From Eubacteriales bacterium (lineage in GTDB: Bacteria > Bacillota > Clostridia > Lachnospirales > Lachnospiraceae), in the NCBI GenBank assembly GCA_030526005.1, contig JAUNDP010000020.1, positions 1 to 37,904 on the forward strand: a stretch of DNA of 37,904 bases, written 5' to 3'. Every line of letters begins with the position of its first letter. Position 1 is the stretch's first letter. Positions 27,265 through 30,533 of the stretch are shown piece by piece. Position numbers and translations under genes: made by a program. The notes beneath the pieces are model-generated. The model saw nothing but the letters and a program-made list of their open reading frames with translations, did not search any database and was not told the DNA's origin.

Positions 27265-27365
27265 TTGCAGGATAAAATATTTTAAAACAATCCGAAATCT
27301 CATTGAATGAGAAAAAATGATCAGGGAAAAAGAAGTAAAAAAAGAAAATGGAAAGGAACAGAAAG

Positions 27366-28463
27366 ATGGCAGGATCAACATTTGGGACACATTTTAAGAT
27401 TATGACGTGGGGAGAATCCCACGGAAAGGGAGTAGGAGTTGTTGTGGATGGATGTCCGGCAGGTCTGGAACTTTCCGAGAAGGATATTCAGATTTTTTTA
27501 GACCGGAGAAAACCAGGAAGGAGTCGTTATGCGACGCCGAGAAAAGAAGAGGACTGCGTGGAAATTTTTTCGGGTGTATTTGAAGGAAAGACGACAGGAA
27601 CGCCGATTGCCATGGCAGTTTTCAATAAAACACAGCGCTCAAAAGATTACAGTGAGATTGCCAAAATGTACCGGCCAGGTCATGCAGATCTGACGTATGA
27701 TCTGAAATACGGTTTCCGTGACTACAGAGGAGGAGGGCGATCTTCCGGAAGAGAGACGATTGGAAGAGTTGCGGCAGGTGCGATTGCTGTCAAAATTTTA
27801 AATCAGCTGGGAATCACCTTTACAACGTATACAAAATCAATCGGACCGGTTGTGATGGAGTCATTCTGCAAGGATGAGATTTTGAATAATGCTCTTTGTA
27901 TGCCGGATGCAAAAGCTGCGCAGGAGGCAGAGCAATATCTGGAGCAATGTATGAAAGAGGGAGATTCCTCAGGCGGCGTGATCGAATGTATAATCCACGG
28001 ATTGATGCCGGGAATTGGAGAACCTGTTTTTGAAAAACTGAGTTCAAATTTGGCAAAGGCAATCTGTTCGATCGGAGCAGTAAAGGGATTTGAAATTGGA
28101 GACGGAATGATGGCTGCAAGGGCAAAAGGCAGTGAAAATAATGATGCGTATCATTTAGGAAATGATGGCAGACTGGAGAAAATGACAAATCATTCCGGCG
28201 GAATTTTAGGAGGCATCAGTGACGGAAGCGATGTCATTTTTCGTGCAGCAGTTAAACCAACCCCGTCTATTTTCCACGGTCAGAGAACGGTGACAACAGA
28301 CGGCGAGGAGAGTGAGATCCATATTAAAGGACGCCATGATCCGATTATTGTGCCCCGTGCGGTTGTGGTTGCGGAATCAATGGCTGCTCTGACGGTGCTT
28401 GATTTGATGATGGAAGCAATGACTTCTCGGATGGAATATCTGGTACGTTTTTTTAAATCGTGA
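27366..28463 (+). CDS. aroC: Chorismate synthase
   Basis: This is the last enzyme of the shikimate pathway: it converts EPSP to chorismate using reduced FMN. The 365-residue protein carries all family blocks: ITMTW-type start KIMTWGESHGKGVG, RRKPGRSRYATPRKEED, YRPGHADLTYDLKYG, the Arg/Gly-rich GGRSSGRETIGRVAAGA and HSGGILGGISDG, then the C-terminal RHDPIIVPRAVVVAE. ATG at 27366 is chosen because GGAAAGGAAC stands just before it; an in-frame ATG at 27348 overlaps that site. No other aromatic pathway gene is beside it. No terminator is seen before the next promoter at 28491. Confidence 0.96.
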   Translation: MAGSTFGTHFKIMTWGESHGKGVGVVVDGCPAGLELSEKDIQIFLDRRKPGRSRYATPRKEEDCVEIFSGVFEGKTTGTPIAMAVFNKTQRSKDYSEIAKMYRPGHADLTYDLKYGFRDYRGGGRSSGRETIGRVAAGAIAVKILNQLGITFTTYTKSIGPVVMESFCKDEILNNALCMPDAKAAQEAEQYLEQCMKEGDSSGGVIECIIHGLMPGIGEPVFEKLSSNLAKAICSIGAVKGFEIGDGMMAARAKGSENNDAYHLGNDGRLEKMTNHSGGILGGISDGSDVIFRAAVKPTPSIFHGQRTVTTDGEESEIHIKGRHDPIIVPRAVVVAESMAALTVLDLMMEAMTSRMEYLVRFFKS

Positions 28464-28490
28464 ATATTCTGTAAAATTAGATACGTTTCA

Positions 28491-28519
28491 TTGACAAATG
28501 ATTTTTTTGAAACTATAAT
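28491..28519 (+). promoter_or_regulatory. Perfect-consensus SigA promoter of the CorA leader transcript
   Basis: TTGACA (28491-28496) and TATAAT (28514-28519) are separated by exactly 17 bases, a full match to consensus. The predicted start is near 28526, giving a leader of about 170 bases before the CorA start. So strong a promoter in front of a transporter usually means the control acts after initiation. Confidence 0.9.
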
Positions 28520-28566
28520 ATCCATGAACAGAAAGACTTTACAGCTAAGAAAGAGAGGGTGATTCC

Positions 28567-28623
28567 ATGGAAGGTGGGCCTAGTCCTAGGGAGAAGATAA
28601 GAAAATTAAAAGAGAGAACATAG
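28567..28623 (+). CDS. 18-codon leader reading frame upstream of CorA (MgtL-like arrangement)
   Basis: ATG at 28567 is preceded, 7 bases away, by GAGAGGGTGA, a good ribosome site. The frame encodes MEGGPSPREKIRKLKERT and stops at 28621-28623. It sits wholly inside the leader of the CorA transcript. The peptide has an early acidic residue and prolines, then a basic tail, loosely like the Salmonella MgtL leader peptide, whose translation aborts at low Mg2+. Direct sequence identity is weak. The stop codon overlaps the left arm of a hairpin (28622-28627 with 28655-28660), which couples translation to RNA folding. Translation is inferred, not shown. Confidence 0.6.
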   Translation: MEGGPSPREKIRKLKERT

Positions 28624-28678
28624 TACCTGGGATTCGCCTGGAGAGAGATGATCTGGTACTGTGTACAGATTATTTTTT
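28622..28678 (+). promoter_or_regulatory. Candidate attenuator with two competing hairpins in the CorA leader
   Basis: Hairpin A pairs AGTACC (28622-28627) with GGTACT (28655-28660). Hairpin B pairs CTGGTAC (28653-28659, one bulged G) with GTACAG (28663-28668) around TGT. It is followed by ATTATTTTTT (28669-28678), which looks like a weak terminator. They share bases 28655-28659 and cannot both form. A ribosome at the leader stop codon would cover the left arm of A and favour B; early drop-off would favour A. The CorA ribosome site AAGGAG follows at 28681. Confidence 0.4.
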
Positions 28679-28695
28679 GAAAGGAGCATGGAATT

Positions 28696-29637
28696 ATGAT
28701 TAAAATTTTCCGAACAATGGATGGAGAAATTCAACATGTAAATGAGGCACAGGAAGGCTGCTGGATTGCACTGATCAATCCGACTGCTACGGAAATCCTG
28801 GATATTTCCAAAGAATACAAGATAGAAGTGGACGATTTAAGAGCGCCTCTGGATGAGGAGGAGCGGTCCCGTATCGAGGTGGGCGATAACTATACAATGG
28901 TTCTGGTGGATGTCCCGATTATTGAAAATCGAAATGACAAAGACTGGTTCGGAACAATTCCTATGTCGATCATCGTGACGGATAAACTGATTTTTACGGT
29001 ATGTCTGGAGGACACACCGGTATTGTCTGCTTTTATGGACGGAAGAGTGCGCAATTTCTTCACTTATATGAAAACACGTTTTATCCTGCAGATTTTGTAC
29101 AAGAATGCAAGTCTGTATCTGCACTATCTGCGTATCATTGACAAGAAGAGCGAAGTGGTGGAGAAAAAGCTGCATGGATCGACGAGAAATCAGGAATTGA
29201 TAGAGCTTTTGGAACTGGAAAAGAGCTTGGTTTATTTTACAACATCGCTGCGGTCAAATGAAGTGGTGTTGGAAAAACTTCTTAAGACGGAGACCATTAA
29301 GAAATATCCAGAAGACACAGAACTGTTGGAAGACGTTATCATTGAAAACAAACAGGCGATTGAGATGGCGAATATTTACAGCGGTATCTTGAGCGGAATG
29401 ATGGATGCGTTCGCATCGGTTATCTCAAATAACCTGAATATTGTCATGAAATTTCTGGCAACGGTGACAATCGTGATGTCAATCCCGACGATGATTTTCA
29501 GCGCGTATGGCATGAATGTGAATGAGGCTGGAATGCCATTTGCGGGAAGTCCGTTTGGATTCTGGTTTGTGATTCTGTTCTCCCTCATCTTAAGTATTGT
29601 AGTTGCTATTATTTTTTCTAAAAAGAATCTCTTCTAA
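28696..29637 (+). CDS. corA: CorA-family magnesium/divalent cation transporter (second copy)
   Basis: This 313-residue CorA protein has an N-terminal cytosolic alpha/beta domain (GCWIALINPTATEI, YTMVLVDVPI). A long helix region and two C-terminal membrane helices follow, with the pore signature YGMNVNEAGMPF. It closely resembles the typical Gram-positive CorA of about 310-320 residues and is longer than the first copy at 21759. AAGGAG stands 9 bases before the ATG. It is the first gene of a run (CorA, rhomboid-like, pyruvate kinase, LTA-synthase-like) and is preceded by a consensus promoter and a structured leader with its own short reading frame. Confidence 0.93.
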   Translation: MIKIFRTMDGEIQHVNEAQEGCWIALINPTATEILDISKEYKIEVDDLRAPLDEEERSRIEVGDNYTMVLVDVPIIENRNDKDWFGTIPMSIIVTDKLIFTVCLEDTPVLSAFMDGRVRNFFTYMKTRFILQILYKNASLYLHYLRIIDKKSEVVEKKLHGSTRNQELIELLELEKSLVYFTTSLRSNEVVLEKLLKTETIKKYPEDTELLEDVIIENKQAIEMANIYSGILSGMMDAFASVISNNLNIVMKFLATVTIVMSIPTMIFSAYGMNVNEAGMPFAGSPFGFWFVILFSLILSIVVAIIFSKKNLF

Positions 29638-29669
29638 TTCTAAAATGATGAAGAAAGAAAGGATTGCTT

Positions 29670-30533
29670 ATGAAACTGATTGACAAATTACAGCGCAAAT
29701 TTGGGCGGTATGCGATTCCAAATCTGACAATGTATATCATTATTCTCTATGTGGTCGGATATATTCTGCAGCTGATTCAGCCGTCCTTCGTCTTATATCT
29801 GACGCTGGAACCGGCGCTGATTTTGCAGGGGCAGGTCTGGAGACTGGTGACATGGCTGTTAATTCCGCCTGGAAGGCTGGATATTTTTACTATTATCATG
29901 CTTTCTCTGTATTATTCTTTGGGAAATACATTAGAGAAGACATGGGGAACGTTTCGGTATAACCTCTATATCTTTTCGGGTGTTCTGGCGACGATGATCG
30001 GAGCGTTTATCATATATGGAATTTTTGCTGCGCAGGGAGTAGAACCACTTCTTGGAACAACGTTCAGCACCTATTACATTTCACTTTCTATTTTTTTGGC
30101 TTTTGCCGCAAGTTATCCAAATATGCAGCTGTATTTATATTTCATTATTCCGATCAAGATCAAATGGCTTGCATTGCTGGATGGAGTTTATCTGCTGTTT
30201 GCTTTTGTCAGCAGCAACTGGGCAGGAAGAGTTGCAATCATTGCCTCATTATTTAACTTCCTGGTCTTTTTCCTGGGAGGCGTTCAGTACTGGAGAGTAT
30301 CTCCGTCTGAAATCAGAAGAAAGCAGAAGTTTAAAAAGCAGGTAAGTTCCAATACGCGTTCTTATCCAAACAAGAACAATCAGGTTACAAAGCACAAATG
30401 TGCAATCTGCGGCAGGACAGAACTGGACGGAGACGATCTGGAATTTCGTTTTTGTTCAAAGTGTGATGGAAATTATGAGTATTGCCAGGATCATCTGTTT
30501 ACACACGAGCACGTACATCATGACAAAAAATGA
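29670..30533 (+). CDS. Rhomboid-like membrane protein without catalytic serine, with Cys/His metal-binding tail
   Basis: This 287-residue protein has about six membrane segments in about 18-210. The rhomboid-type loop motif VWRLVTWLLIPP and the following TLEKTWGTFRYNLYIFSG place it with rhomboid-like proteins. Where active proteases have GxSG, it has LGTTFSTYYIS, and no matching catalytic His is apparent, so it is probably a pseudoprotease. The tail (about 238-283) has CAIC, then FCSKC, then CQDH and several His, with spacing CX2C-X14-CX2C-X6-CX2H-X3-H. This resembles a small treble-clef or RING-like zinc site. ATG at 29670 is preferred over TTG at 29664 because AAGAAAGGA stands 7 bases before it. 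It lies 25 bases before pyruvate kinase. Its function is not known to me. Confidence 0.75.
   Translation: MKLIDKLQRKFGRYAIPNLTMYIIILYVVGYILQLIQPSFVLYLTLEPALILQGQVWRLVTWLLIPPGRLDIFTIIMLSLYYSLGNTLEKTWGTFRYNLYIFSGVLATMIGAFIIYGIFAAQGVEPLLGTTFSTYYISLSIFLAFAASYPNMQLYLYFIIPIKIKWLALLDGVYLLFAFVSSNWAGRVAIIASLFNFLVFFLGGVQYWRVSPSEIRRKQKFKKQVSSNTRSYPNKNNQVTKHKCAICGRTELDGDDLEFRFCSKCDGNYEYCQDHLFTHEHVHHDKK

Follow-up and report, generated by a model that had tools for sequence, protein, structure and literature searches.

The leader of a corA gene in a Lachnospiraceae genome probably acts as an MgtL/MgtQ-type attenuator that senses Mg2+ through the ribosome, judging from a conserved upstream open reading frame (uORF) and the competing RNA folds that follow it. 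Comparative searches suggest that this putative attenuator uORF is widespread in the Clostridia, where it appears to be stacked in part on the M-box riboswitch. The gene lies in a 37,904-nucleotide stretch of DNA (the window; contig JAUNDP010000020.1 of assembly GCA_030526005.1), for which an initial annotation had proposed an MgtL-like leader. To our knowledge, only enterobacteria have so far been described as sensing Mg2+ through ribosomes that a leader peptide destabilises (MgtL, MgtQ and CorL). What appears to be new here is that the frame precedes transporter genes of two families and that it can share a leader with the M-box; the anatomy of the leader peptide resembles the one already known from MgtL and MgtQ.

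The features of the leader are collected in the table below. The perfect promoter described initially agrees with the consensus throughout, and a sigma-70 promoter recurs before the corA leader in two genus relatives (G001 and G002). Between promoter and corA lies a leader of ~170 bases, and the neighbour on its other side is a frame that appears aroC-like by eye (27348-28463). The 18-codon frame behind a good ribosome site was likewise present as described, the site being an extended one whose consensus among relatives, AAGAAAGGAAGTG, we take to be complementary to the 3' end of 16S rRNA. The downstream product belongs to the Pfam CorA family, and its match to TIGR00383 reaches 130.6 bits, under the curated cut-off of 200.75. 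The leader as a whole (28526-28700) folds better than 200 of 200 dinucleotide shuffles (z -3.6); taken alone, 28620-28690 gives a weaker signal (z -1.7), with 12 of 200 shuffles equally good.

Table. Features of the corA leader in the window (hairpins as predicted) and of tandem leaders elsewhere.
Feature	Position or loci	Strand	Details
Sigma-70 promoter, TTGACA-17-TATAAT	28491..28519	+	Consensus matched at 12/12 positions
Extended ribosome-binding site of the uORF, AAGAAAGAGAGGGTGAT	28547..28563	+	
uORF, MEGGPSPREKIRKLKERT	28567..28623	+	18 codons; ATG 28567; stop TAG 28621-28623
uORF core codons M-[DE]-x-[DG]-P, here MEGGP	28567..28581	+	Constrained part of the peptide (pN/pS, motif counts)
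Hairpin A, putative anti-sequestor	28620..28662	+	Arm 1 28620-28627, arm 2 28655-28662; predicted -12.8 kcal/mol
Hairpin B, putative sequestor	28637..28684	+	Predicted -18.0 kcal/mol for 28634-28695
corA ribosome-binding site, AAAGGAG	28680..28686	+	
corA, Mg2+ transporter	28696..29637	+	Pfam CorA PF01544, 9.5e-54
M-box and uORF in tandem in one leader, corA or mgtE	L133, L136, L137, L141, L142, L143, L144, L237, L238, L250, L263, L268		

The uORF was compared across two collections of corA upstream regions. Set 1 held 83 regions, namely those of 80 corA orthologues (the best 80 of 580 confirmed), of two genus relatives and of the window itself; set 2 held 78 regions from 245 genomes of the class. 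A recognisable frame was found in 39 of the 83 regions of set 1. A loose motif had flagged 47, and eight were dropped from later counts: L005, which carries an apparent inserted element, and L021, L043, L048, L055, L056, L061 and L067, judged by eye to be chance frames. No such uORF was counted before 44 of the 83 related corA genes in set 1 and 59 of the 78 in set 2. The set 1 peptides begin M-[D/E]-x-G-[P/S], and the remainder varies in sequence and length. Across 37 frames (the 39 less L060 and L065), pN/pS was 0.37 for codons 2-5 vs 0.93 for codons 8-13, a measure of codon conservation that is biased upward because the set 1 uORFs were picked by motif. Constraint on the amino acids thus covers codons 2-5 and fades beyond codon 7. 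In the comparison of orthologous leaders, as proposed initially, the start and early codons are conserved, competing hairpins occur in many relatives, and the later codons are unconstrained.

Motif counts were compared with those of scrambled versions. Frames of the form M[DE]x[DG]P preceded by a ribosome site occurred in 28 of the 83 regions of set 1 and in 18 of the 78 of set 2, vs 0-2 for scrambled motifs unable to match those peptides. The scrambled M[DG]x[DE]P also gave 18/78 in set 2 (0/83 in set 1), because MDxDP fits both motifs. With a looser motif, 19 of the 78 regions of set 2 were found to carry the frame, spread over nine labelled families in addition to that of the window; the usual form in these other families of the class is MDADP, MDCDP, MDTDP or MDSDP. 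Some leaders carry Ser or Thr at position 5. Proline would accordingly not be the sole key residue, and the core appears to consist of an acidic residue 2 with Gly/Asp-Pro at positions 4-5.

Several leaders departed from this pattern. In Oliverpabstia intestinalis (L005) the uORF MEAGPDPR lies 282 bases before corA, with a repeat-like element apparently inserted between the two. Two divergent candidates, TTG-KPGPG in L060 and MSPRPEPD in L065, precede corA outside the main pattern. In several relatives from Blautia, Hungatella and Lacrimispora (L022, L024, L027, L029, L038, L039 and others), a promoter-like sequence was seen by eye near corA with no leader frame, and the system has therefore been lost or was never gained there. 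Attenuation by amino-acid starvation was considered and rejected, since the uORFs contain no run of one codon family.

Further searches took no account of the gene that follows the frame. Although derived from frames that precede corA, the patterns and profiles used in them are, like the motif counts above, less biased than the codon-conservation test. A pattern of 20 bases, modelled on the Lachnospiraceae form, gave 13 matches in 397 genomes of the family, all 13 preceding corA, with one match for the reversed control. A pattern of the MDxDP form gave 14 matches in 245 genomes of the class, 12 before corA and two before mgtE, with none for its control. A sequence-only profile (R1) run on 100 genomes returned nine strong matches, all ahead of corA; at the 21 weaker loci given (E ~0.003 to 0.09), where corA alone was looked for, none lay nearby. 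A second profile (R2) returned 41 matches at E <= 0.01 in the class genomes, of which 20 preceded corA, 14 mgtE and seven neither (L249, L251, L253, L257, L259, L261 and L262); the top 28 (E <= 7.8e-4) all preceded corA or mgtE. The R2 training set included 18 of these 41 matches. Among the 23 outside it, 16 precede corA or mgtE, as do 10 of 10 at E <= 7.8e-4.

In a draw of 299 genomes from the phylum, R2 gave 11 matches at E <= 0.002, five before corA, three before mgtE and three before neither (L266, L269 and L273). At L269 an MDADPEPQ frame precedes a 432-residue frame that looks by eye like an ABC permease and that tblastn matches to neither CorA nor MgtE; the match may be a chance one or mark a further target. 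Identification as mgtE rests on Pfam for L212 and L215, on NCBIfam for L212, and for the remainder on tblastn with the L212 protein, the weakest assignment being L268 (28.5% over 221 residues, a partial match). In the class, 30 of the 34 corA and mgtE leaders fit M-[DE]-x-[DG]-P exactly and 33 of the 34 have [DG]P within the first seven residues, although the profile that retrieved these leaders itself represents the motif. CorA and MgtE are different Pfam families that share the function of Mg2+ uptake.

A known Mg2+ sensor often accompanies the uORF. The M-box (RF00380) was found at least once in 55 of the 245 class genomes, and in 16 of the 34 corA and mgtE leaders (9/20 corA, 7/14 mgtE) it lies upstream of the uORF on the same strand. 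The uORF therefore often shares its mRNA with an established sensor of the ion. The distance from M-box to profile match ranges from 24 to 402 nt and is 55-63 nt in 9 of the 16. When cmscan was applied to 20 chosen loci, an M-box was found in 12, two of these outside the class. At set 1 loci bearing the uORF, the M-box was absent from all 20 tested (20 of 36 contig-derived loci, mostly Lachnospiraceae). In the window, the uORF stands alone, without an M-box: the Rfam search of the leader bore out the initial annotation, which had recognised no M-box or other known Mg2+ RNA, and the sole match at E<1 was to an lncRNA model at 20.4 bits vs a cut-off of 50. Nor was RF00380 found anywhere in the window's genome (95% complete), with a control search positive in B. 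subtilis and L. lactis. Preceding mgtE as well as corA, and often following an M-box, the uORF appears tied to Mg2+ more strongly than the window alone could indicate.

Downstream of the uORF, the predicted fold of the window contains two hairpins. As proposed initially, the uORF stop codon overlaps the left arm of hairpin A, whose inner arms are 28622-28627 and 28655-28660. The two hairpins also share bases as had been claimed, hairpin B taking 28655 and 28657-28659 from arm 2 of A. The outer pairs of B join CCT (28637-28639) to AGG (28682-28684) of the corA ribosome site. To score such arrangements across relatives, we looked for an arm 2 able to pair with an arm 1 upstream of it and equally with an arm 3 abutting or entering the transporter ribosome site; the weaker of the two stems was compared with dinucleotide shuffles, using ungapped stems and control stretches of fixed length. 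For the window alone this gave p 0.19, which is not significant, the test missing the bulged inner stem of the window's B because it admits ungapped stems only. Statistical support for competing hairpins comes from the relatives.

Among these, competing hairpins at p<0.05 were found in 20 of 39 set 1 leaders with the uORF vs 1 of 42 without it, and in 5 of 19 vs 1 of 58 in set 2; L005 and L020 were excluded from the uORF-less controls of set 1 (42 of 44) and L200 from those of set 2 (58 of 59). A repeat with 60 shuffles gave 18 of 39 uORF leaders at p<0.05 in set 1. The stem at the ribosome site was significant by itself in 24 of 39 leaders with the uORF vs 3 of 42 without (set 1) and in 10 of 19 vs 3 of 58 (set 2). 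In set 1 the threshold was missed by 19 of 39 uORF leaders and in set 2 by 14 of 19, and four leaders lacked any arm 1/2/3 triple; among genus relatives, L002 gave p 0.01 and L003 p 0.31. In the clear cases L014, L015 and L025, arms 1 and 3 are alike and compete for arm 2, and arm 1 begins no more than three bases from the uORF stop. Arm sequences change between loci and the pairing is kept. Folding of the free RNA was also compared with folding in the presence of a ribosome parked at the stop: 24 of 39 leaders changed in the predicted direction, and the mean unpaired probability of the ribosome site was 0.38 vs 0.37. With no overall signal from this comparison, the case for a switch rests on the pattern and not on thermodynamics. 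In one family (L137, L138, L141 and L142), a long inverted repeat, GAGTATCTTTTGACATC...GTCAAAAGCTACTC, was noticed by eye around the end of the uORF.

These features suggest how the leader could work. Ribosomes would load onto the uORF and meet in M-[D/E]-x-[G/D]-P a stretch that should be hard to synthesise, with an acidic residue beside the start and, at codons 4-5, a Gly-Pro or Asp-Pro bond that forms slowly. Gly-Pro is a slow bond for the ribosome. Asp-Pro motifs are reported to stall B. subtilis ribosomes in the absence of EF-P (PMC11381351). When Mg2+ is low, the ribosome would halt or drop off at the early codons, leaving arm 1 free to pair with arm 2 in hairpin A; hairpin B would then be blocked, the corA ribosome site open and CorA made. 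With ample Mg2+, translation would run on to the stop and the ribosome would cover arm 1; arm 2 would then pair with arm 3, and the resulting hairpin B would bury the corA ribosome site. The net effect would be induction of corA at low Mg2+; we infer this sign, the dependence on Mg2+, the translation of the frame and the early halt. The initially proposed MgtL-like leader with Mg2+ control is thus retained in its frame, its early residues and its competing hairpins, found in many relatives, and altered in its output, which is predicted to be sequestration and not termination.

A different reading, positive coupling, would have uORF-bound ribosomes expose the start of corA, through long-range pairing between the initiation regions or through termination beside the corA ribosome site; translating the uORF would then activate the transporter, with Mg2+ secondary. 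In the window, 28559-28569, in the uORF initiation region, can form 11 bp with 28687-28697, in that of corA, and across the three members of the window's genus that were computed the pairing energy is -14.3 kcal/mol in G000 and G002 and -10.0 in G001. By this model both starts would be hidden unless a ribosome occupied the uORF. A long-range pairing of this kind was not seen by eye outside the genus. Elsewhere, the uORF stop lies near or within the transporter ribosome site or the frames overlap: in L155, L161, L163, L164, L190 and L194 it falls 11-15 nt ahead of the start of corA, the mgtE leaders L222 and L246 belong to the same group, and in L237 and L238 the uORF overlaps mgtE itself. A uORF stop within the ribosome site or past the transporter start does not fit the hairpin switch proposed for the window, which therefore does not operate in those families; occlusion or coupling must replace it where the stop reaches the transporter ribosome site. 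A mutation of the mgtQ start to a stop is also reported to have lowered mgtB (PMC8092293). Most set 1 leaders, however, leave 39 to 92 nt between uORF stop and corA start, with space for two hairpins, and as an account of the window we consider coupling rather unlikely.

The uORF might also sense translation difficulty in general, such as a shortage of EF-P, of ABC-F proteins or of charged tRNA-Pro, with slow Gly-Pro or Asp-Pro synthesis inducing the transporter irrespective of Mg2+. Overexpression of YfmR is described as relieving Asp-Pro stalling in B. subtilis lacking EF-P (PMC11381351), and EttA as acting on MgtL (PMC11282234), both of which favour such a role. On the other hand, the frame precedes two unrelated families of Mg2+ transporter, often beside an M-box, contains no run of Pro codons and in some leaders has Ser or Thr in place of Pro at position 5. 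We regard a general sensor of this kind as doubtful, and less credible than coupling.

Still less probable is the form of attenuation in the initial annotation, in which hairpin B and its T-run would end transcription. Six T do follow the inner stem of B (28673-28678), and T-rich equivalents occur in G001 and G002. In the predicted fold, however, this T-run is paired inside hairpin B, and a terminator scan of 28000-30000 flagged nothing in the leader, its one terminator-like site (29803-29816) lying inside the next gene. Clear leaders beyond the genus (e.g. L007, L010, L016 and L040) have no T-run after the hairpin and pair into the ribosome site. This part of the earlier description is disfavoured, and hairpin B looks more like a ribosome-site sequestor than a terminator in the modelled folds. 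Least credible of all is that the leader is a riboswitch-like structured RNA with an incidental frame, or that the frame encodes a small protein with a function of its own, for although the leader is well folded, it has no Rfam match, amino-acid constraint is confined to the early codons and arm sequences differ between loci.

If the leader is indeed a ribosome-based Mg2+ attenuator, sensing of Mg2+ by leader peptides would be a widespread principle across clostridia, and the arrangement would point to a means of controlling Mg2+ uptake in genomes that lack an M-box. Dozens of natural variants would be available for finding the residues that make a ribosome Mg2+-sensitive, and in the tandem of M-box and uORF, what each sensor measures would be testable within one mRNA. 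A broader proposal, which we judge evenly balanced between right and wrong, is that M-[D/E]-x-[D/G]-P serves bacteria in general as a nascent-peptide sensor of Mg2+. In the Bacillota it would control corA and mgtE, partly stacked behind the M-box, such that free Mg2+ would be read by the riboswitch in transcription and ribosome stability then by the uORF in translation; lineages like that of the window would keep the ribosome sensor only, and enterobacterial MgtL would be either distantly related or a striking case of convergence.

A literature search, which covered few subscription papers or preprints, found no description, for the Bacillota, of a uORF like this one ahead of corA or mgtE. The corA leader with CorL in Gammaproteobacteria is similar in placing a uORF and two alternative folds before corA (PMC11552253, PMC6429828), and translation of that uORF is described as inversely related to corA (PMC11552253). 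It differs in the UUG start of E. coli corL, a single N-terminal Pro and a Rho-dependent output, as presented in the same study (PMC11552253). The corA motif is reported from Gammaproteobacteria and metagenomic DNA only (PMC6429828), and an mgtE motif from Thioalkalivibrio only, according to its description (PMC11109978).

The M-box (ykoK) riboswitch RF00380 is an aptamer, unlike the translated uORF. In M. tuberculosis, an M-box is followed by uORF2 (Rv1805A), a conserved frame with a conserved Pro that recalls the tandems described here (PMC12810186). By that account uORF2 is specific to mycobacteria, has its Pro at position 7, lies before pe20 and is itself shown to be controlled by the M-box (PMC12810186), all of which sets it apart from the clostridial frames.

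MgtL, which precedes mgtA in Salmonella and E. coli, resembles the window's uORF as a short frame before an Mg2+ transporter gene, with alternative mRNA folds that for the window are predicted, and at 17 codons in E. coli vs 18 it is of similar length. The absence of an exact EPDP had been counted against the window's peptide; MEGGPSP is indeed not EPDP, but this was too pessimistic, in that E. coli MgtL starts MEPDP and shares M-[DE]-x-[DG]-P with MEGGP. The nearest approach to EPDP among the listed frames is MDPDP in L263. Homology between MgtL and the uORF cannot be judged from five residues. MgtL is found in another phylum with mgtA as its target, in place of corA and mgtE here. Its translation is reported to drop off at EPDP when Mg2+ is low, with a Rho-dependent terminator as output (PMC11282234), vs the sequestration of the ribosome site predicted here.

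MgtQ, encoded between mgtC and mgtB in Salmonella, provides a parallel for that output. It carries Asp2 and a further acidic residue, acts on translation and has one stem that hides the transporter ribosome site (PMC8092293); its Asp2 and Glu5 are reported to impede its own translation and to raise mgtB (PMC8092293). MgtQ is described as eight codons long, placed within an operon and directed at mgtB (PMC8092293), unlike the uORF of the window. The stem logic differs as well: MgtQ is reported to set stems 1:2 and 3:4 against 2:3 (PMC8092293), and the window's leader would set 1:2 against 2:3.
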